Below, in pieces: positions 5,082-48,283 of a stretch of 56,701 bases of DNA (position 1 is its first letter; every line of letters starts with the position of its first letter). Source of the stretch: Vicinamibacterales bacterium (GTDB lineage: Bacteria > Acidobacteriota > Vicinamibacteria > Vicinamibacterales > UBA8438); NCBI GenBank assembly GCA_029940535.1, contig JAPYUM010000016.1, positions 1 to 56,701 of the forward strand, in the 5' to 3' direction. Under the pieces are notes generated by a model that made no database searches, had not been told where the DNA came from, and worked only from the letters and a program-made list of their open reading frames with translations. The translations under genes and the position numbers were made by a program.

Positions 5082-8038
5082 CAGAAGGCTTGGCCGATGC
5101 TGAAGTGCAACGCGGTCAGCGATTCCCGCTCACCCGCGAACTCGCGCCGGTCCAGCTTGAATCCCAGATCGACTCGGATCGGTCCCACCGGCGACCGGTA
5201 GCGCACGCCGAAGCCGGCACTGCCTCGAATCTCATCCAGCTGGAAGTGGCTGACGCGGTCGAAGACGTTACCGGCGTCCAAGAAGCCAACCATCTGGAAG
5301 GCGCCGCCGACCGGCACGCGCAGCTCGGTAATCATCACCAGCATCGCGTTGCCACCGGTCGGAAACCCGTTCGCGTCGATCGTAGGGGCAGCCCCCGGCT
5401 GGTCCACGGTGGGTCCGGTCCCGAGCCGATCCAACGCGAACCCGCGCACGGTGGTATCCCCTCCCGAGAAAAACCGCTCACTGGCGGGCAGGTCCGAGAT
5501 ATCCACCGACTGCGCCTCCTCGGTGTCCACAAACACCAGCACGCCGTCATCCTGCAAGACCAAGATAGGCAACGGCGCGATGCTCACCGTGCGGTTGAAT
5601 CCGCGCGCCAAACCAATCCGCCCACTGGCGGCGAGCACGAGGTCTCCAGGAAGTTGACGGAACACCGACCCCTGGAGCGAGGTCTTGACAAAGCCCACTT
5701 CTGACCCGACCGCGCGAAACGCCCCCTCCGCCTCCACGCCCAGTAGCATCCCCTGAGTCGGCTCGAGCGGATCGTCGCGGGTGTCGCGCACCAATCCAGC
5801 GGTAAAGGTGGACAACTTCACGCTGGGAAACAATCGGTCGACGAGGGGCGCCTCCTCTTGCACAAACTGGGCGTTCGTCAGCCGGTTCTGGCCGTATCTA
5901 TACCCGACACTGCCAGTCATGGTGAAACCGATGGCGCGTCTGAGCTCAACGTTCACGCCCCGACCGAACAGGTCAAAGCTGGGACGAATCGTCTGCTCGA
6001 TGAACCCGGAGATGAGCAGGTCGCCCGCCCGCCCGAACGCCCGAGGTTCGCGGTAATTCAACAGGACCCGGTACTCGTTGAACCCGAGACTCGATGTCGG
6101 CACTGCCGCATCCAGGTCGTCCTTTCGACGCACGCTGACCCGGGTGAACAGATCGATCGATCGGTTCTTGCCCCACAGATTGCGCCGACCGATCTCGAAG
6201 AACCCGCGCGGCGCGAGCTCCAGACGTTCGGTGGCGGCGCCGGCCTCGGTCGCGCGGAGCCGTTGGGTCAGCTCGACCCCACCGCCATACCCGATACTGG
6301 TGGCCGGCGCTTCCTCCACGACGACCACGACGTCGCGTCGGTCCCCGCCGCCGTGACTGATCGTGAGCAGGTCCACCCGTCGAAACAACCCCAGCGCGTT
6401 CAACCGTCGGCGCGTCTCGACTTGCTCGTCCAGACCGAGTGGTGCCCCGGGTCGGAACGTCACCTCCGAACGGACCGTCGATGGCGAGATCTGGCGCATC
6501 CCGACGACCAGCACATGGTCCACGACGACCTGGACGCCCTCCACCACCTGGAACGTTACCTCCGCGCCCGTGAGATCCTCGTCAAACACGACCCGGGCAT
6601 CGACCAGCACCGTCTCATACCCCTCGTTGAGGTACTGTTCACGGATCCGCAGGCGATCGACCTCCAGGCGGGGCGCGTAGTACGGCACGCCGGACACGGT
6701 GTCGAGCAGGGCTGCGAGCTCGGCCGGGGCAAACGCATCGTTGCCGCTGAACGCCACCGTGCCGACAGTCGTGCGCGGGCCCTCAATCACCCGCACCGTG
6801 CACACCAGATGCGTCTCCTGGGTCTCGTCCTCGTCCGGCGGCTCTACGTCGGCGAGCGCCGGAATGACCTGCGTGCGGCTATATCCCCGTCGAGCGTAGG
6901 CGGCTCGGATGGCGGTCGTTCCCAGGTCGATGTCGGACATGACCAGCGGGGCGCCTGGTGCAAGATTGAGCAGTTCCACCAGCTCCGTCTCGGTCACGAC
7001 CTGCTGCCCCTCGAACCGGACGCCGACCACGCGATGCATCCGACCGCGAGCCACCGTGAACACGACCGACAGCTCTCCCACCGCCGCCATCCGACGATGC
7101 GAGACGCTGGCGTCTCGATACCCGAGCCCGCGCAGGTGGAGTTCGAGCCGTAGGCTGGAGTCCTCCAACAGGTCTTCGTCGATGGACCCCTCACTGGCGA
7201 TTGGGACCAACTCCTCCAGCCGCGCCTCGGGCACATCGTCGCCCTCGAAGACCACCTCCACCGGCGACCCCGTCTGGATGTCCAGCACCACGTCCACCAC
7301 GCGGCCGTCCGGACTCGGCGACACATCGTGGCGCAACCGGGCTTCGTAGTAGCGCTGGCCGCGGAGGTCCGCCTCATAGTCGTCCAATCGGGTCTCGAGA
7401 TCCGCCGGGTCGTAGGCCACACCCTCTGCGAGCTCCAGCCTCCGCAACACCCCGGGACGATTTTCGTCAGACACGCCGCGGAAGTCGATATGACCGATCA
7501 GCGCGGCCGGCCCTTGATCGACATCGAACACCAGACGGCCATCGACGGTGTCGGTTGAAATGCGCACCGCGAACCGGCCGGCCTCCTGGTAGATGTCCTC
7601 GAGCATCGCGACCGCGGCCGGGATCTGGTCGGTGCGTACGGCGCGCCCGAAACGTCGAGTGATGGGTCCGAGCAACTCCTCGGCCGGGAGCCCCAGGGAG
7701 CCTCGAAAATCCACGGCCCCGGTGGTAGGGACCGGGAACAGGTCGTAACGCACCACGACACTGCGAGGCTCCGCGGCGGCGCTCACCCGCACCTCGGCGA
7801 AGTAACCACGGGTGAACAGGTGGAGCACGCTCTCACGCACTTGGCGAAGGGAGAACGGCTGGCTGGTCCGGGTCTCGATCAGCTCGAGGATGGTGCGGTC
7901 GTCGATGACGACGCCGTCCTGGAATACCCGAACCACGGCCACCGTCTGCCCGACGAGATCGACGGGGGCGGCGGCACGGACCGAGGCGGGCACACAGGCC
8001 AGTACGACGGCCAGCAGCCACGCTGACCCACGGTTCAA
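5081..8038 (-). CDS. Omp85 (BamA/TamA) family outer-membrane assembly protein
   Basis: A 985-residue outer-membrane beta-barrel with a signal peptide (residues 1-23). About 600 residues of POTRA-type repeats (DFRG, FEGQQV, FSGNDAF and similar strand starts) precede a C-terminal barrel. The barrel carries Omp85 hallmarks: DTRDDPLEPTQGM, the loop-6 motif VRGF, and a C-terminal phenylalanine. BamA usually has five POTRA domains; the length here suggests six or seven. The start is TTG at 8038, overlapping the TGA of tamB as TTGA. Position directly after tamB favours a TamA-like partner for TamB, but a BamA role cannot be excluded. Confidence 0.92.
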   Translation of the reverse strand: MNRGSAWLLAVVLACVPASVRAAAPVDLVGQTVAVVRVFQDGVVIDDRTILELIETRTSQPFSLRQVRESVLHLFTRGYFAEVRVSAAAEPRSVVVRYDLFPVPTTGAVDFRGSLGLPAEELLGPITRRFGRAVRTDQIPAAVAMLEDIYQEAGRFAVRISTDTVDGRLVFDVDQGPAALIGHIDFRGVSDENRPGVLRRLELAEGVAYDPADLETRLDDYEADLRGQRYYEARLRHDVSPSPDGRVVDVVLDIQTGSPVEVVFEGDDVPEARLEELVPIASEGSIDEDLLEDSSLRLELHLRGLGYRDASVSHRRMAAVGELSVVFTVARGRMHRVVGVRFEGQQVVTETELVELLNLAPGAPLVMSDIDLGTTAIRAAYARRGYSRTQVIPALADVEPPDEDETQETHLVCTVRVIEGPRTTVGTVAFSGNDAFAPAELAALLDTVSGVPYYAPRLEVDRLRIREQYLNEGYETVLVDARVVFDEDLTGAEVTFQVVEGVQVVVDHVLVVGMRQISPSTVRSEVTFRPGAPLGLDEQVETRRRLNALGLFRRVDLLTISHGGGDRRDVVVVVEEAPATSIGYGGGVELTQRLRATEAGAATERLELAPRGFFEIGRRNLWGKNRSIDLFTRVSVRRKDDLDAAVPTSSLGFNEYRVLLNYREPRAFGRAGDLLISGFIEQTIRPSFDLFGRGVNVELRRAIGFTMTGSVGYRYGQNRLTNAQFVQEEAPLVDRLFPSVKLSTFTAGLVRDTRDDPLEPTQGMLLGVEAEGAFRAVGSEVGFVKTSLQGSVFRQLPGDLVLAASGRIGLARGFNRTVSIAPLPILVLQDDGVLVFVDTEEAQSVDISDLPASERFFSGGDTTVRGFALDRLGTGPTVDQPGAAPTIDANGFPTGGNAMLVMITELRVPVGGAFQMVGFLDAGNVFDRVSHFQLDEIRGSAGFGVRYRSPVGPIRVDLGFKLDRREFAGERESLTALHFSIGQAF

Positions 8039-11000
8039 AAGGCGTGCCTCACACGAAAATCGAGCGCGTAGGTGCGGTCTTCATTCTGGGACAGGATCCA
8101 CGCGAGTCGATCGCTCTGGTCATACTCGAGGACCACGATGAGATCACGGTTGGCGCCACTGATCGCGCGCGACAAGGTGAGGTGCGCTCGTTCGGAAATC
8201 CGCTGGCCGATCAGGACCCGCGCGGTCGGATTGAGCTGCGCTGATTGTTGCGACGACGGGTCGCCCAGCGAGGGCGTGATCTGAAAGGAGTCGACGCCGA
8301 ACGATTCCTCGACCACCCGGCCGACACCGGACGACAACGAGCTGGTCAGCAAGCGGGCCGCACTGGCCTGAATCCGCTGTTGCTGCGCCAATTCGGGAGA
8401 CCTGGCCGCACGCAGGTCGGCACTCTGGGGGTCGCGAATGTCACCCAGCAGCAAGCCGATCACATCAACTTCCGGCAGCGGAGGATCCGACTGGAATGTC
8501 AGAGCAAACTGATCGTCGGTGCTTCCGGTGGCCTGCACGGTCACCCGATAGGTCTGACCCGGCACCCGCACATCGGTCTCGACCTCGACGTTGACGAACG
8601 GCTCAATCTTGCTCGGGTTGGCGAGGCTGATCGTTCCGTAGTTCAACCGATACCGGAGTCCTTCGAAGAACGCCTCGCCGCTCTCCATATCAGCCGAGCC
8701 AAACAGCTGTGGTTGGTCATAGGTACCCTGCACCGTGAGATCCGCGCTGGCCACGACTCGCACCGCATTGCTCGTCATCCGCAAACTGGCCGGCGCGACG
8801 ACACGAATGTCCAGAGCCAGCGGCACGACCGACGTGTCGGGCTCGGACAGGTCGAGGGCTGGGTCTGCCTCGTCTCCACTGAAGAGTCCCGTACCCAGGT
8901 CGAGCCCCTCGAGCAGATTGGCGTCAAGCACATCGATGGTGCCGGCCAGTACCGGTGCCGTGGCGTCGCCGCGAAGCACCAGATTGGCGTCAACGAGCGA
9001 CCGGAACCCAACCGGGTATCGCCACTGCATCTCCCGGCCCGTCAACGTGATGGCCAGCTCCTGGAGCTCGACGCCGGCCAATCCGACGCGACCGCCGATG
9101 GTGACCGCTCCCCCGCCCATCACGGCTGGGATATTGTCGAAGCGCAGGCCACCCTGCTCGAAGACGACTCGACCGTTGATCGCCTCAAGCCCATGGGGCA
9201 ATCCGATGTGGCGGATGCGGCCATTCAACAACGCCGCCTGTCCAACCAACTCGGGCTGGGCGAATGTACCGGTCAGACGTGTGCGCAACTGGGCCACCCC
9301 GGACCCACGCAGATCCGGCACGAGTCCCCTGAGGATGCCGAGATTGGCGTCTCCATCAATGTCCAAGGCCAGCGCGTCGGTCGCCAAATCGACCGAACCG
9401 GACAGGTCGAGCGCCGTACCCTCCCCCACCAGCCGCAGCCGGTCGATGTCGATGGCCTGGCCATCGAGTCTCAGCTCGATCGGACCGTCATTGTGCAGGT
9501 CGTACTCCAGCAAGGTCAGGTCGGCCTGCTCTATGGTGGCGTCGATCCGCACGCGGTCCGCCTGCAGTGGGCCTTGAATGTGGGCCGACCCGCTCACCAC
9601 GGCCGAGGTGTAGGGTGACAACCTCGGATCGAACATCCGGACGTAGGGCGCGAGGGACGCGTTCGCCACCCGGACCCGCACATCGGCCAGCATGTCCGTC
9701 ATCTCCACCTGACCTGTCGCCGACACCGCCAGCGTCGACGAGGCACCCTCGAGGGTGATCATGAGCAGGCCGTCGCGGACGTTGAGGCTCGCCGTCACCT
9801 GCCCGATCTCCTCGTCCCCGACAAACAGATCCACGACGGTTCCGCGAATCTCGTATCGCGGATCGTCGAACGCCCCGACCCCTGCAATGTTGAAGTTGAC
9901 AACGCCAGACAGCGGCTCCGGTGGCGCTGGCATGCTGTCCACCGTGTTGACCTCGAGATCGCGCACGTCCCAGTTGAAGACATACGACGCATCCCAACCG
10001 ATGAAGGCGGCGCCGGTCACGGTCCCCGTCCCCTTGCGCATCTCGAACCCGTCGAGACGAACACCGTTGCCCTCGAACCGCAGATCGGCCGACGCCGTAT
10101 CGATCGGTTCGCCGTAGGCCGTCGGCTGGTCGAGCACGACCTGGCCGTACCCGAACATCCCGCCGTACGGGCCATAGAGGCGCACCTCACCGGTGGCCGG
10201 CCCGTCGATGGTGTAGCCCTCCTCCAGTCCAAACGCGGCCCGGATATTCGAGGTCGGAAACGAGGTCATGGTGATGACCGCGTTGATTTCTTCTCCGCCA
10301 TCGACGCGGGCCCCACCTATCGAGAACGTGCCGTCGGCGCCGAATTCGGCCCCGTCGTTCCGGAACAGCCCGTGTCTCACCTCCAGGTAGCCGCTATCCA
10401 CGACGATCTCGCCGCCTCCAACGCCCCATTCCACGTTCCAGGCACGTAGCGCCTCCCCGGCGAACGTCGCTTCCACGCGTGGGCGCGTGAGGTCGCCCAG
10501 CATGACCCCCTCGAACGTACCTGCACCGTCCACCTCGAATGGCTCCGTCGGCGACCCCGTCGCGGTCATCACCGCGGTCATGAGCCGGTAGCCTTCTTGC
10601 CAATCGGTGCTCGTCGCTCGGAACGGGATCTCGGTCTGGGCGCCACCACCGGTGCGTCCGTCGAACGTGACGTGGGTTGACGGGGTGGCGATATGGCCCG
10701 ACGTCAGTTCGATCACGTCGCCCTCGAACGCATACTCGAGCGCTCCGCCCACCTGGAACTCGGTGGTCGTGAGGTCCGGTGGCCGATCGCCTCGGGACGC
10801 AACGCCCTGGGCAGCGCCGGACGGAAGCTGGGCCGTAGCCAGGCTGACGCCCGCGAGCGGTTGTAACTGAATCGTCCCGGTGTGACGGGACCCACCCGAC
10901 GGTCCGGTCGGCCACCCCATCTGGTTGTGCCCGGCAGCCCGGGCGATGGGCCGGATGCCATGGAGCTCGAAGAACCGCGCCAACTCGACGACGTCGGCGT

Positions 11001-23877: not shown

Positions 23878-24696
23878 TCAGCGTGACGAGAGCCGACGCA
23901 TGTAGTCCAGCATCCGTCGCCGAACGAGGTCGGAGTCGCCGTCCCCGAGCTCGGCGAACATCCGCTCCATCTCCGCCAGATCGGCCCGCCGGCGGTTTGA
24001 CAGCTGCTGCTCGAACTGCTCCATTTCGATCACGAGAGCCCGATCCTGTCGCCGCTCGCTCTCGAGAATCATTTGACGCACACCCTGCACCCACGCGTCA
24101 TTTATTGAACCGGGCGTCGGACCGGATGTGGAGTCATCGAGCCTGGGCTGCCGTCCAGGCGACCCGCCGCCCGTGCCGACCGGGGTGCCACGCACTGGTT
24201 GCGGGTCACGACGCGGGTCATCATCGGTTGCCGTACCGGATGCCGCCAATTCCTGTCCCGACGGAGCATCGGCGACGGTTTGCGCGGGCGAGGTCATCGC
24301 ATCGATCCATCCGATACGCACGACCATCCCACCCTGACCGATCTGCACTTCCGGTCTCGCGATGACGGCTGCGGTGGCCAGCACCAGGACTGCGGCCGCC
24401 GCCAAACCCCATGCCGGCATCCGCCGCAGCCGGCCCCACCGGGACACTGCCGCCAATGATGTTCCGAGATCGGCCTCATCCTCGTCGGTGGCTGCCACCA
24501 CCCGAAATCCCAGTGCGGCGGGGGGCGGGCTCCACGTCTCGAGCGTGCCACGCACCTCTCGCAGTTCACCGATTTCGTCGGCGCACTGTGCGCAACCGCG
24601 CGCGTGCGTCTCGATTCGTTGACGGGTCTGGTCGTCAGCCTCGCCGTAGAGGTATTCGACCAACGCCTCCTGCTCGATACAACTGTTGTCGGTCAT
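23878..24696 (-). CDS. Zinc-finger anti-sigma factor
   Basis: A 272-residue single-pass membrane protein that should bind and hold the ECF sigma factor encoded just upstream. The N-terminal anti-sigma domain has the zf-HC2 pattern H..GCAQC in IETHARGCAQCADEIGEL (about residues 28-45). One transmembrane helix follows at about 90-108 (AWGLAAAAVLVLATAAVIA), then a low-complexity periplasmic linker and a charged helical C-terminus (ERRQDRALVIEMEQFEQQL). ATG overlaps the TGA of the sigma gene (ATGA), the normal layout of sigma/anti-sigma pairs. Release is probably by proteolysis or conformational change, not visible here. Confidence 0.88.
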   Translation of the reverse strand: MTDNSCIEQEALVEYLYGEADDQTRQRIETHARGCAQCADEIGELREVRGTLETWSPPPAALGFRVVAATDEDEADLGTSLAAVSRWGRLRRMPAWGLAAAAVLVLATAAVIARPEVQIGQGGMVVRIGWIDAMTSPAQTVADAPSGQELAASGTATDDDPRRDPQPVRGTPVGTGGGSPGRQPRLDDSTSGPTPGSINDAWVQGVRQMILESERRQDRALVIEMEQFEQQLSNRRRADLAEMERMFAELGDGDSDLVRRRMLDYMRRLSSR

Positions 24697-25331
24697 CGAT
24701 CTAGATTCACCACTTTACGATGGCTTCTCGCCATCAGAGACGTCGCCGGCACGGCGCTGAGCATGGCTGCCCCGTGCACGCCCTTCCGCTGTAGTTGCCG
24801 GCGCAGCAGGCTGAGCCCCTGGTAGAGCCGGGTCTTCACCGTGCTCAGTGGATTGCCCTGCAGATCGGCAATTTCCTGGAACGTGAGGCCGTGATACTCC
24901 TTCAACACGACGGTCGTACGTTGCTCCTCGGACAGCGTCGCCATCGCCTCCGTCATCAGCCGTCCGAGGTCGCGTCGGACCGTCTGGTCCTCGGCCGTCT
25001 CGACAGACAGATCTGGCAGCGACGGTTCGCCGTCGGTATCGAGCGGGGTCATGATGGCCGTTCGTCGTTCCCGCCTCATCCAGTCCCGACACAGATTCAG
25101 CGCGATCCGATACAACCAGGAGGAGAACTTTGCCTGTCCCTTGAACCCTTTGATCCCCCGAAACGCGCGAAGGAACGTTTCCTGGCATATGTCCCGAGCC
25201 TCCTCTTCGCGGCCGAGCACCCGATACGCCAAGGCGTAGATCTGCCGCTCCCAGCGACCGACCAGTTGATTGAAGCTCTCGGAGTCGCCGGCGGTGGCGA
25301 GCGCGACGAGTTCTTCGTCAGTTCTTTGCAT
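24693..25331 (-). CDS. ECF-type RNA polymerase sigma factor (RpoE-like)
   Basis: A 212-residue extracytoplasmic-function sigma factor. Region 2 is seen as FNQLVGRWERQIYALAYRVL and EEARDICQETFLRAFRGI, with KFSSWLYRIALNLCRDWMRR; region 4 as LSEEQRTTVVLKEYHGLTFQ and EIADLQGNPLSTVKTRLYQG. It is paired with the overlapping zinc anti-sigma factor. I start at the ATG at 25331; a TTG six codons earlier is possible. Regulon and inducing stress are unknown, though the lipoprotein two genes downstream suggests an envelope link. Confidence 0.92.
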   Translation of the reverse strand: MQRTDEELVALATAGDSESFNQLVGRWERQIYALAYRVLGREEEARDICQETFLRAFRGIKGFKGQAKFSSWLYRIALNLCRDWMRRERRTAIMTPLDTDGEPSLPDLSVETAEDQTVRRDLGRLMTEAMATLSEEQRTTVVLKEYHGLTFQEIADLQGNPLSTVKTRLYQGLSLLRRQLQRKGVHGAAMLSAVPATSLMARSHRKVVNLDR

Positions 25332-25576
25332 CCCGAACGCCGTTCGCAATGCGGTTATGGTGGCAAGCCGAGTAAATGCGCATCGTCCGTTCCCTGGCGT
25401 GTCCTGTCGGCGAGTGACCCGGTCCGCTCCACGCCTTCAGATAAGAGCCCCTACACCACTGTTAGACGCCGGATCGCGTGAAGTGGTCTTCGAAAAACGC
25501 CTCGCGTCCGACCCGGACCGGAAAATGGCTCGCATCCGGGAAAAGTGGTACTCTAACCATCCGCGGTGCCGCTGTC

Positions 25577-44652: not shown

Positions 44653-44681
44653 TTGACACGCCGCCACGCGGTTGCTATGCT
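44653..44681 (+). promoter_or_regulatory. Candidate sigma-70 promoter for the ECF/STAS/radical-SAM operon
   Basis: TTGACA (44653-44658), a 17-base spacer and TATGCT (44676-44681). Predicted start about 28 bases before the ATG at 44716. It implies expression by housekeeping sigma; I saw no second promoter that would suggest autoregulation. Confidence 0.6.
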
Positions 44682-44715: not shown

Positions 44716-45345
44716 ATGCTCGCCAGTTCAGCGCCTGAGAGCCCTGACGCGATCGAGCAGTTGATCGATGGCTGTCTCCGCGGCGACCAGCAGGCCTGGG
44801 ACCTCATCGTCACCCGCTATTGGCGTAAGGTCTTCAACGTCGCGTACAAATTCGTCGGCCGGCACGACATGGCGGAGGATCTGACCCAGGACGTATTCCT
44901 GAAGATCTTCAAGGCGCTCGGCACCTTCGACCGCCGGGCCAACTTTCAGACCTGGCTGATCAACGTCAGTCGGAACCTCTGTATCGATCATTACCGCAGC
45001 GTTCGCAAGGAACGTGAACTGGTCGACCGCAGCGTCGATTCCGCCGACGTCTCGGCCGCGAGTGGCGAGCCTGATGCCCTGGTCACGCTCGAGCGTGGCG
45101 ACCGCCGAGCCCGGCTCCACGACGCGTTGGCACAGCTCCCGGACACCCTTCGCACGGCGGTGGTGCTGCGCGACATCCAAGAGCTGACCTATCAGGAAAT
45201 CGCGGACAAGCTGGCCCTGCCAGAGGGCACGGTCAAATCACGGATCAACCGGGGTCGCAAGGAACTCGCGCGCCAGATCCGGCGCACCATGCCTGACGGC
45301 GTGGTCAAACGCAGCCCACCCGAACCACAGGGAGGAATCACATGA
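44716..45345 (+). CDS. ECF-type RNA polymerase sigma factor
   Basis: A 209-residue sigma factor. Region 2: LIDGCLRGDQQAWDLIVTRY, DMAEDLTQDVFLKIFKALGT, NFQTWLINVSRNLCIDHYRS. Region 4: LPDTLRTAVVLRDIQELTYQ, EIADKLALPEGTVKSRINRG. No anti-sigma gene adjoins; instead the next gene encodes a STAS protein, overlapping as ATGA. I start at 44716; an ATG at 44677 in the same frame would overlap the promoter. It may be controlled by a partner-switching module whose other parts lie elsewhere. Confidence 0.9.
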   Translation: MLASSAPESPDAIEQLIDGCLRGDQQAWDLIVTRYWRKVFNVAYKFVGRHDMAEDLTQDVFLKIFKALGTFDRRANFQTWLINVSRNLCIDHYRSVRKERELVDRSVDSADVSAASGEPDALVTLERGDRRARLHDALAQLPDTLRTAVVLRDIQELTYQEIADKLALPEGTVKSRINRGRKELARQIRRTMPDGVVKRSPPEPQGGIT

Positions 45346-45683
45346 ACCTGACCACCGAGTCCATCGGCGACGTGGCCATCGTGCGGGTCAGCGAAACCCG
45401 ACTGATGTACCCGCTACTCTCGGAGTTCGCCGACGCCGTGACGGCGCTGATCAAGAGCGGCGAGCGGAAGGTGCTGATCGATCTCGCACCGGTCGTCTAC
45501 GTCGACAGTGCGTCGATCGGCTGTCTCATGGATCTGTATCGGCAGGCAAACGCCGCCGGCGCCACGTTGAAGCTTTCGGGCGTGCAGAAACGGGTCACCA
45601 CGATGCTGACCATGACTGGCGCCCAGCAGTTCATCGATGTCCACGGGGACGAGCAGGCCGCGCTCGAGACCTTTGGGGAGTGA
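45342..45683 (+). CDS. STAS-domain protein (anti-sigma factor antagonist)
   Basis: A 113-residue single STAS domain, SpoIIAA/RsbV type. KVLIDLAPVVYVDSASIGCL carries the aspartate-serine pair that is phosphorylated in family members. The fold continues through GATLKLSGVQKRVTTMLTMT and ends GDEQAALETFGE. It overlaps the sigma gene by 4 bp. Such proteins free sigma factors by sequestering an anti-sigma kinase; no such kinase is in the operon, so its partner is unknown. Confidence 0.88.
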   Translation: MNLTTESIGDVAIVRVSETRLMYPLLSEFADAVTALIKSGERKVLIDLAPVVYVDSASIGCLMDLYRQANAAGATLKLSGVQKRVTTMLTMTGAQQFIDVHGDEQAALETFGE

Positions 45684-45684
45684 C

Positions 45685-45954
45685 ATGCGTAGTATCAGGA
45701 CAACGGGCGGCGCAGACGTCACGCTCGATGGCGACCTGCTCGCGGTGCTCGAGGCGCTGTACAAGGAGCTGAACACCCGGTATGCCGCCGACCGCACGTT
45801 CGAGGACACGGTGCGCGAGGTGAACCACCTGTTGGATCAGATGACCGAGGACGAACGACGCACCTACCTGGTAGAGAGCCTCTTCCTCAACACCGTGACG
45901 TATGAGAACGAGCGGCTGGGCGCCTACATGCGCAAGCTGACCAAGGACGGGTGA
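45685..45954 (+). CDS. Small acidic helical protein, unknown function
   Basis: An 89-residue protein that starts one base after the STAS stop codon. After a short N-terminal strand it is almost all predicted helix: LLAVLEALYKELNTRYAADR, DTVREVNHLLDQMTEDERRT, NTVTYENERLGAYMRKLTKD. I do not recognise a family. Its place between a STAS protein and a radical-SAM protein suggests it is a subunit, adaptor or regulator in that operon, but nothing in the sequence shows this directly. Confidence 0.75.
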   Translation: MRSIRTTGGADVTLDGDLLAVLEALYKELNTRYAADRTFEDTVREVNHLLDQMTEDERRTYLVESLFLNTVTYENERLGAYMRKLTKDG

Positions 45955-45964
45955 GCGTGACTCC

Positions 45965-47338
45965 ATGTCGCTGAACCATCAGGCGACCCGGTTCAGTTGT
46001 TCGTGGCCGTGGAGCACGCTGGTGCTCACCTGCGACGGGCGCGTCGTGTGTGGATGCGCCGACCCCTACGCGCAGCGAGTGCTCGGCGACGCGCGGACCC
46101 AGACCATGGGTGACGTCTGGATCGGCGACACCATTCGCGACCTGCGAGCCGATCTGAACGGCGGCGGCTCGGCGTTCTGCGGCGACTGCCCCCTCAAGTT
46201 GCCGTTGCCGGACAGCGATAGTGGCCAGGACGCACCCGCTCCGCGGCCCGTGGATGCCGGAGGGCTGCCCTCGCGCCTTTATGTCGAGTGCACGGCCGCC
46301 TGCAACATTTCTTGCCTCGACGCCTGCTGTGCCCCTGAGACCGGTATCACGCGCACCCGGCAGGCAGGCATGCTCGACTTCGACCTGTTTACCAAGGTGG
46401 TCGAGGAGACCGGCCCATCGCTCGCACGGATCGACTTCTTCAACTACGGCGAGGCGTTCCTCCACAAACGGGCGGTCGAGATGTGCGAGCACATCAAGCG
46501 GCGGTTCCCGCACATCTACCTGTACACCAGCACGAACGGCCTCGCGCTGACCGAGGCACGAGCCCGACAACTCGTCCATTCCGGTATCGATGAGGTGACA
46601 TTCTCGGTGGATGGGGCGTTCCCGGAGAGCTATGCGCGCTACCGTCAGCGGGGCGACTTCGAGGTCGCCCTCCGCAACCTCCGTGCGATGACGGGTGAGA
46701 AACGAAGCGCCGGCAAGGATCTGCCGTTCATCAACTGGCGCTACATCCTCTTCAGGTGGAACGACAGTCATGAGGAAATGGACCACGCACGAGCGCTGGC
46801 CGAGGAGATCGGCGTCGACCGGCTCACCTGGGAGATTACCGACCATCCGGAGTCGGCCTACTCTCGCCGATTCGCCCCCGGCACCGACGACCACACGGCG
46901 ATCAGGCGGGAGATCTGGGACGACAGCAATCTGGGCAACGCGATCCCCGGAGCCACGCCCCGGGCACGCATCGACTTGCGCCGTCTCGTCCCAGGGCTCC
47001 CGCTCCTCGGTCGCCGCGGCGGCCGGATGCGGTTGCGCCCGCAAGTGAAGAACCTGTCGACACGACCGTTTCCGGCGCACGCGTCGTATGGGCGCCGCCT
47101 GGTCCGCCTCGGGGCGCAGCTCCGCGGAGCCGACGGCTCGATGAGGGACCGCGACCACGCGAGGGCGTGGCTCCCGGCAACCCTGGAGCCCGGGCAGACA
47201 CACGACGTTCCGATCGAGATCCCGCTTCCGGACACACCGGGCCGTTATCAACTCACGCTTGATCTGGTGTCCGAGGGCATCGACTGGTTCGAGGCCTGTG
47301 GCTCGCCAACCACGAGCGCGCCACTCGTCGTGTGGTAG
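45965..47338 (+). CDS. Radical SAM protein with N-terminal SPASM-like and C-terminal beta-sandwich domains
   Basis: A 457-residue protein. Residues 10-78 look like a SPASM-type cysteine module (CSWPWSTLVLTCDGRVVCGC, then FCGDCPLK). The radical-SAM barrel spans about 104-315; its cluster motif is C113-NIS-C117-LDA-C121, with further cysteines at 109 and 122. That is CX3CX3C, one residue more than the usual CX3CX2C. INDIRECT support for the fold: FFNYGEAFLHKRAVEMCEHI, YTSTNGLALTEARARQLV, IDEVTFSVDGAFPESYARYR. The C-terminal 110 residues (VKNLSTRPFPA, RYQLTLDLVSEGIDWF) form a beta-sandwich of the kind attached to glycan-related enzymes. Product and substrate are unknown. Confidence 0.8.
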   Translation: MSLNHQATRFSCSWPWSTLVLTCDGRVVCGCADPYAQRVLGDARTQTMGDVWIGDTIRDLRADLNGGGSAFCGDCPLKLPLPDSDSGQDAPAPRPVDAGGLPSRLYVECTAACNISCLDACCAPETGITRTRQAGMLDFDLFTKVVEETGPSLARIDFFNYGEAFLHKRAVEMCEHIKRRFPHIYLYTSTNGLALTEARARQLVHSGIDEVTFSVDGAFPESYARYRQRGDFEVALRNLRAMTGEKRSAGKDLPFINWRYILFRWNDSHEEMDHARALAEEIGVDRLTWEITDHPESAYSRRFAPGTDDHTAIRREIWDDSNLGNAIPGATPRARIDLRRLVPGLPLLGRRGGRMRLRPQVKNLSTRPFPAHASYGRRLVRLGAQLRGADGSMRDRDHARAWLPATLEPGQTHDVPIEIPLPDTPGRYQLTLDLVSEGIDWFEACGSPTTSAPLVVW

Positions 47339-47368: not shown

Positions 47369-48283
47369 CTAGTTGACGACGGGGGTCGGCACCTTGGCCT
47401 GGGCAGCGGCGCCCGCCACGTCGGCGTTGGCCGATGACTCCACCAGCTGCCAGGCGTCCGTATCCTGCAGAAACTTCTCCGCGAATGCGGCATGTAGCTC
47501 GTGACCGCCACGATGCGCCACGAGATGCCCGATGACCGGTGATCCCAACAGCGCCAGGTCACCGATCGCGTCCAGAATCTTGTGCCGGACGAACTCGTCC
47601 TCAAACCGGAGCGAATTGTTCAGAACGCCGGTCTCGCCCAGCACGACCGCGTTGTCGAGCGACCCACCGAGTGCCAGCCCCTTCTTCCGCAACATCTCGA
47701 CTTCCTTGAGGAACCCGAACGTCCGGGCCGGTGCGATCTCATCGACAAACGACTCCTGCGTGATCCGGAGCGTATGGGTCATGTGCCGCAGCAGCGGGTG
47801 GTCGAAACTGATGGTGTAGGTAATCTTGAAGTACTCGGACGGATACAACGCGATGCTCTTCTCACCGCGCGTCAGTGACACGGACCGCAACACTTTCAAG
47901 TAGCGCCGGGGACGCGTGAGTCGCTTCAATCCGGCCTCGTGCACCAGATAAACGAACGACGCCGCACTGCCGTCCATGATGGGCACTTCCGGCTGATTGA
48001 GTTCCACAACGACGTTGTCGACACCCAGGCCGACGAGCGCGGCCAGCAGGTGCTCCACCGTCTCCACCGTGCCTGCATCGCGTGACAACGCGGTGGCGTA
48101 GTGCAGCCGGTCGACATTGTCGACCGTGGCCGGAATCTCGATACCACCCAGGTCGGCCCGACGAAACCGGATGCCACGACCGGCTCTCGCCGGTTTGAGT
48201 GACATGGTCACCCTCTGGCCAGAATGCAGACCGATCCCCGAGCAGGAAACAGAACGTCGAATAGTGTGTTGCACGTCAGTCAC
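47369..48283 (-). CDS. lpxC: UDP-3-O-acyl-N-acetylglucosamine deacetylase
   Basis: First committed step of lipid A synthesis, so the cell makes lipopolysaccharide. A 304-residue zinc enzyme: QHTIRRSVSCSGIGLHSGQR at the N-terminus, zinc histidine in VETVEHLLAAL (H78), ELNQPEVPIMDGSAASFVYL, RHKILDAIGDLALLG with the second histidine and the aspartate, and HRGGHELHAAF with the general acid histidine. It is convergent with the radical-SAM gene (30 bp apart). The 223-bp upstream gap holds AT-rich sequence that probably carries its promoter. Confidence 0.97.
   Translation of the reverse strand: MTDVQHTIRRSVSCSGIGLHSGQRVTMSLKPARAGRGIRFRRADLGGIEIPATVDNVDRLHYATALSRDAGTVETVEHLLAALVGLGVDNVVVELNQPEVPIMDGSAASFVYLVHEAGLKRLTRPRRYLKVLRSVSLTRGEKSIALYPSEYFKITYTISFDHPLLRHMTHTLRITQESFVDEIAPARTFGFLKEVEMLRKKGLALGGSLDNAVVLGETGVLNNSLRFEDEFVRHKILDAIGDLALLGSPVIGHLVAHRGGHELHAAFAEKFLQDTDAWQLVESSANADVAGAAAQAKVPTPVVN

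Follow-up and report, generated by a model that had tools for sequence, protein, structure and literature searches.

ECF sigma factors are among the most common signaling proteins of bacteria, and few modes of their control are known; their usual partner is a membrane anti-sigma factor. The window analyzed here, a 56,701-nucleotide stretch of DNA from a Vicinamibacterales bacterium, contains a canonical ECF and zf-HC2 anti-sigma pair at positions 23881 to 25349 on the minus strand. In contrast to that pair, an operon elsewhere in the window encodes an ECF factor followed by a STAS protein, an 89-residue protein, and a radical-SAM enzyme (Table 1). This raises the question of what holds the ECF factor of the operon in check, and of which of the four proteins belong to the switch.

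Table 1. Features of the operon and its borders (positions in the window)
Feature	Positions	Strand	Basis or remark
Sigma70-like promoter TTGACA-17-TATGCT, extended TG	44653..44681	+	34 nt 5' of the ECF start
ECF sigma factor, 209 aa	44716..45345	+	Pfam Sigma70_r2 6e-19, Sigma70_r4_2 1e-17; orthologues in all loci reaching ECF
Single-domain STAS protein, 113 aa	45342..45683	+	Pfam STAS 3.6e-14
Ser56 codon, presumed phospho-acceptor	45507..45509	+	Aligns with the DSxG loop found in other STAS proteins
89-aa small protein, undescribed family	45685..45954	+	No family match; AF2 model; distribution
Radical-SAM/SPASM protein, 457 aa, permuted domains; lineage-specific fourth gene, non-core	45965..47338	+	Pfam Radical_SAM and SPASM
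SPASM domain, aa 12-76, before the core	45998..46192	+	Pfam SPASM 6e-8; aligns to the BtrN C-terminal twitch region
Radical-SAM core, aa 108-242, CX3CX4C (C113, C117, C122)	46286..46690	+	Pfam
C-terminal Ig-like (NBR1/ILRUN FW-like) domain, aa 346-456	47000..47332	+	
lpxC, convergent neighbor; boundary, outside the module	47369..48283	-	

The tight packing of the four genes described in the original prediction is exact in the open reading frame coordinates: the ECF and STAS genes overlap by ATGA, the small gene begins 1 base past the STAS stop, and the radical-SAM gene begins 10 bp past the stop of the small gene (45954). The ECF, STAS, Radical_SAM, and SPASM assignments all exceed the Pfam cutoffs. 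The sigma factor contains regions sigma2 and sigma4 only, as judged by Pfam; it is of the ECF type by TIGR02937, its best equivalogs are SigW- and RpoE-like, and it is not of the sigmaB or sigmaF kind. None of the four genes encodes a zf-HC2/ZAS or any other anti-sigma domain by Pfam or NCBIfam, and no gene for a PhyR-type response regulator or for NepR was found in the operon or in its conserved neighborhood. Purifying selection acts on each of the four genes, with dN/dS values of about 0.06 to 0.33 in six comparisons.

The strong promoter that had been predicted ahead of the operon is the only sigma70-like match of the region, with 0.2 matches expected in shuffled sequences, and it is conserved in relatives. 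A match of at least 10/12 is kept 33 to 36 nucleotides 5' of the ECF start in 17 of 73 orthologous upstream regions, compared with 1 of 365 shuffles. An autoregulated promoter of the ECF type was also considered, and none was found; the conserved promoter is the sigma70-like one.

Conservation and loss of the ECF, STAS, and small-protein genes

Linkage was examined in 60 relatives, in 396 genomes across the phylum, in 80 named loci, and in 10 genomes from outside the Vicinamibacterales. The small gene was found in 52 of the 60 relatives and in 49 of the 396 genomes sampled across the phylum. In the 80 named loci, STAS and ECF genes precede it without exception wherever the contig extends to them; the spacings mostly lie between -4 and +5 bp. 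Throughout the order the operon stands in a syntenic block, rpmA-obgE-nadD-rsfS-comF-tmk-lysA-[operon]-lpxC-uvrA, and since the whole segment is syntenic, linkage within the order is by itself weak evidence of function. The ECF, STAS, and small genes (the trio) are contiguous in seven of those 10 genomes, and in three of the seven (L171, L173, and L175) they lie at sites unrelated to the lysA/lpxC neighborhood, so that synteny alone cannot explain the trio. In the other three genomes (L172, L174, and L176) the STAS and small genes are adjacent without a linked ECF gene; an ECF protein of 45 to 47% identity is encoded elsewhere in each genome and, from its place in the tree, could be either an orthologue or a paralogue.

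The losses are also informative. In four complete or nearly complete genomes of the order (G010, G013, G017, and G058), the small gene is missing and the ECF and STAS orthologues are lost as well; their best ECF matches are at 30 to 37% and their best STAS matches at most at about 33%, or there is none. Two others (G028 and G326) have lost the ECF and small genes together and have kept, between lysA and lpxC, a STAS gene with Ser56. These lone STAS genes at the syntenic site (L262, 6950 to 7312; L263, 1412 to 1747), in which Ser56 is intact, must serve another use in the two lineages. In G018 and G026 the small gene is missing merely through contig ends. The joint loss of ECF and small genes with retention of STAS pairs the small protein with the ECF factor inside the order, whereas the STAS-small pairs kept without a linked ECF gene in three distant genomes would pair it with STAS. 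In view of these opposing patterns, two readings of the small protein are retained below.

The ECF-STAS-small trio is a real, selected module of Acidobacteriota that evolves as a unit. The original prediction, a protein-based system with neither an anti-sigma gene nor a kinase gene linked to it, is borne out for the first three genes, which are conserved and very strongly linked, and their homologues are not scattered at unlinked positions. As a four-gene unit the prediction held in part, with genes 1 to 3 together in all 80 loci where the contig extends far enough and the radical-SAM gene behind them in 44 of 78 informative loci of the order.

Several further observations concern individual loci. 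A GAF-GGDEF gene, possibly an input gene, ends 26 bp before the STAS-small pair of G065 (L172, 5948 to 7177). G064 carries a closely related ECF gene with a zf-HC2 anti-sigma gene behind it. In G334 (L188, around 7948 to 8389) the ECF, STAS, and small genes are in pieces, and the adjoining radical-SAM gene is intact. Carriage of the module by phage was considered and rejected, as no relative of the small protein was confirmed in viral contigs.

The small protein, the STAS protein, and control of the ECF factor

The AlphaFold2 model of the small protein, built with 59 sequences (pLDDT 88), predicts a beta hairpin and three helices and no transmembrane segment. Its conserved motifs are LDGDLL and YLxESLFLNxVxYEN. 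It belongs to no Pfam or NCBIfam family, scans of the 59 members gave scattered weak matches only, and it has no sequence relative in the PDB. Structure searches with the model returned nothing of weight (best Foldseek E value, 1.3; best VIA-align Z score, 4.0) and no resemblance to a known anti-sigma domain, although the Foldseek and VIA-align results are not proof that the modeled fold is new.

In the STAS protein, D55 and S56 are invariant within the motif VDSA(S/T)IGCLMDLYRQ. Ser56 is kept in all STAS orthologues, including those outside the order and those in genomes without a linked ECF gene, and its invariance across the phylum is as expected if it is phosphorylated. Pfam detected no RsbW-type kinase (HATPase_c_2) in the operon. 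The earlier statement that no kinase is present thus holds for the locus and fails for the genome, which encodes one clear RsbW-like kinase (G000:C215:3467-3925, L217; HATPase_c_2, 2.8e-24). It is an orphan that lies between aroA-like and suhB-like genes and adjoins none of the six STAS genes, and a good orthologue is present in 49 of the 60 relatives, some of them without the module. A search for an unlinked kinase had been suggested with the original prediction; this one is a candidate only. The kinase persists in the module-less genomes G010, G017, and G028 and so must serve other STAS proteins too, and in G034 the module is present and no kinase was matched. The genome also contains six matches to SpoIIE-type phosphatases.

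The best overall explanation, in which our confidence falls somewhat short of even, is a non-canonical ECF module in which the ECF factor is partnered by the small protein, the STAS protein is a phospho-gated antagonist, and the radical-SAM enzyme stands outside the switch. For this scheme we infer the protein contacts, the direction of control, the signal, and the substrate of the enzyme. The operon would be made constitutively from its housekeeping promoter, with control exerted after translation. The 89-residue helical protein would serve the ECF factor as a dedicated partner, most likely as its soluble anti-sigma factor, and the unphosphorylated STAS protein would bind it, or its complex, and so free the ECF factor. 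Phosphorylation of Ser56 by the unlinked RsbW-type kinase would switch this release off, and one of the several SpoIIE-type phosphatases would reverse it. The radical-SAM protein would be co-expressed, probably modifying a sugar or surface-glycan substrate. In the original prediction STAS took the place of the anti-sigma factor; a linked anti-sigma factor is indeed missing, and STAS itself is the less likely substitute, the 89-residue protein being the better candidate. We propose more tentatively that the 89-residue family represents a novel type of soluble anti-sigma factor. A STAS protein governed by an unlinked kinase would release the ECF factor by acting on this anti-sigma factor, which is not itself a kinase. 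This would be a regulatory class missing from the current list of ECF mechanisms, ancestral in the Vicinamibacteria and present in other Acidobacteriota.

A more doubtful account is a classical partner switch divided between two loci. The RsbW-like kinase would itself act as anti-sigma factor toward the ECF protein, with STAS as the antagonist and the small protein as an accessory, for example a STAS cofactor or a phosphatase recruiter. In agreement with this account, Ser56 is constant, and the RsbW-like kinase is a lone orphan conserved across the order. Among the 40 best of the 60 relatives, the kinase is present in 35 of 36 genomes with the small gene and in 2 of 4 without it, an association with a Fisher value of about 0.02 that is not corrected for kinship. 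However, the kinase is kept where the ECF gene is gone (G010, G017, and G028) and unmatched in G034 beside an intact module, and the account leaves the strong conservation of the small protein and its co-loss with the ECF gene unexplained.

It is unlikely that the STAS and small proteins form a signaling pair, with the small protein as sensor or effector of STAS and the ECF factor as a replaceable output. The three distant genomes in which the two genes adjoin without a linked ECF gene, one of them with a GGDEF gene directly before the pair, argue for such a pair. Those same genomes, however, each hold a relative of the ECF factor elsewhere, and the two lineages with a lone STAS gene have lost the small gene together with the ECF gene.

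The radical-SAM enzyme

The SPASM or twitch domain of radical-SAM proteins is described as a C-terminal extension (PMC9012708). That order is not found here: the SPASM domain (residues 12 to 76) precedes the core (residues 108 to 242), and BtrN aligns to the protein as two pieces with their order swapped. The cluster-binding motif is CX3CX4C (window positions 46298 to 46328) instead of CX3CX2C in 55 of 58 homologues examined. It is kept in homologues of 40% identity, and relatives with the canonical domain order carry CX3CX2C. No description of a CX3CX4C radical-SAM protein was found in the literature searched. The C-terminal Ig-like domain also occurs on a methyltransferase of the same genome. 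The SPASM domain at the N-terminus, the Ig-like domain, and the altered cysteine motif were beyond what the original prediction could detect. By both sequence and fold, the nearest solved relatives are BtrN and BlsE, whose substrates are an aminocyclitol and a sugar nucleoside, respectively; a sugar or glycan is accordingly a tentative guess for the substrate here. Of the distant homologues, one lies behind a Gfo/Idh/MocA gene and another behind heptosyltransferase-region genes; by analogy with these neighbors and with the fold relatives, the enzyme possibly acts on sugars or glycans.

About 56% of the informative loci of the order have the enzyme gene behind the small gene; in the remaining 34 of 78 the small gene has no radical-SAM neighbor, and lpxC is next where the enzyme is absent. 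Unlinked copies occur in genera g2 and g9 and in G029 and G422, where they stand alone among unrelated genes and offer no functional clue. Full-length homologues of 41 to 49% identity are found in other classes. In family f41 (L248, L251, and L252) the enzyme gene directly follows Roadblock/LC7 and MglA-like GTPase genes, a different switch module, and the small gene is absent. In other classes, DUF1573, PPDK-like, or cupredoxin genes occupy the fourth position behind the trio. Remnants of the enzyme gene, consisting of its start and its C-terminal domain out of frame, lie behind an intact trio in three genomes (L202, L203, and L204), and apparently decaying copies occur in two f14 genomes, one with an in-frame TAG (L077) and one with C113 changed to Tyr (L085).

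These patterns bear on whether the enzyme takes part in the mechanism, either by modifying the 89-residue protein in a RiPP-like maturation or by sensing a signal for the switch. Radical-SAM/SPASM enzymes are commonly encoded behind their peptide substrates, and the adjacency and common orientation of the two genes in 44 loci would fit this. We nevertheless consider a part in the mechanism very unlikely, because the small protein is equally conserved where the enzyme is absent, and because the enzyme gene is unlinked in several genera, decayed in others, encoded in f41 where the small gene is absent, and replaced by other genes elsewhere. The constant pairing of a RiPP maturase with its precursor peptide is not seen, as 34 loci lack the enzyme and f41 lacks the small gene. 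A role for the enzyme as sensor or obligatory output of the switch is likewise not supported by this distribution. The enzyme is not part of the core; it is probably a lineage-specific output, a later addition in the Vicinamibacterales. Conservation of the neighborhood alone, for which the order-wide synteny of the entire segment speaks, might still account for the position of this gene but is scarcely credible as a general explanation and is refuted for the trio, which in other classes keeps the same gene order with next to no spacing at unrelated positions and which disappears as a set.

Relation to known systems

The trio is carried by soil- and water-dwelling Acidobacteria, of which a single order has gained the radical-SAM enzyme behind it. 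The Acidobacteriota, which are abundant in soil and hard to culture, appear to join the two classical logics of ECF and STAS anti-sigma control through a small protein without known relatives. The module is compact and cytoplasmic and could be tested in E. coli. A 2022 review of non-canonical ECF mechanisms nowhere mentions STAS, and the combination of ECF, STAS, and small protein without a kinase is not in it; an earlier mention of this gene neighborhood in the main ECF classification (Casas-Pastor 2021) is possible.

The enzyme shares with BtrN (4m7t) and BlsE (7vob), both of which act on sugar-like substrates, the radical-SAM core fold and the auxiliary-cluster cysteines. It differs from them in having the auxiliary domain before the core, CX3CX4C for CX3CX2C, and a C-terminal Ig-like domain. 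This permuted family offers a test of how far a cluster-binding loop can vary.

Four regulatory systems resemble the trio in part. In the RsbV/RsbW/sigmaB and SpoIIAA/SpoIIAB/sigmaF switches of Bacillus, a single-domain STAS protein with a conserved serine is likewise encoded beside a sigma factor. Here, however, the sigma factor is an ECF protein, and an undescribed helical protein is encoded where a kinase or anti-sigma gene is missing from the operon. In Pseudomonas aeruginosa, unphosphorylated HsbA binds FlgM, which shows a STAS protein acting on an anti-sigma factor that is not a kinase (PMC6482189). The HsbA-FlgM-FliA system thus combines a STAS protein with a small non-kinase anti-sigma factor, the role that we propose for the small protein here. 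FliA is not an ECF factor, though, the small protein has no match to FlgM, and the components of that system are not encoded in one compact sigma operon. The Bordetella locus unites the ECF factor BtrS with a STAS protein and a further, soluble anti-sigma protein (BtrU/V/W and BtrA; PMC7498569). There, a kinase and a phosphatase are encoded in the locus, BtrV and BtrW act on secretion, and the small protein is a different one.

For ECF factors, the only precedent for partner switching is EcfG-NepR-PhyR of the general stress response in Alphaproteobacteria (PMC8999054). The likeness lies in an ECF gene beside a gene for a small soluble protein, which is an anti-sigma factor there and is proposed to be one here, and in the partner switch itself. 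The small protein of the trio matches no anti-sigma family in Pfam or NCBIfam, and whereas a response regulator that carries a sigma-like domain serves as antagonist in the alphaproteobacterial system, in the Acidobacteriota module the antagonist would be a STAS protein.
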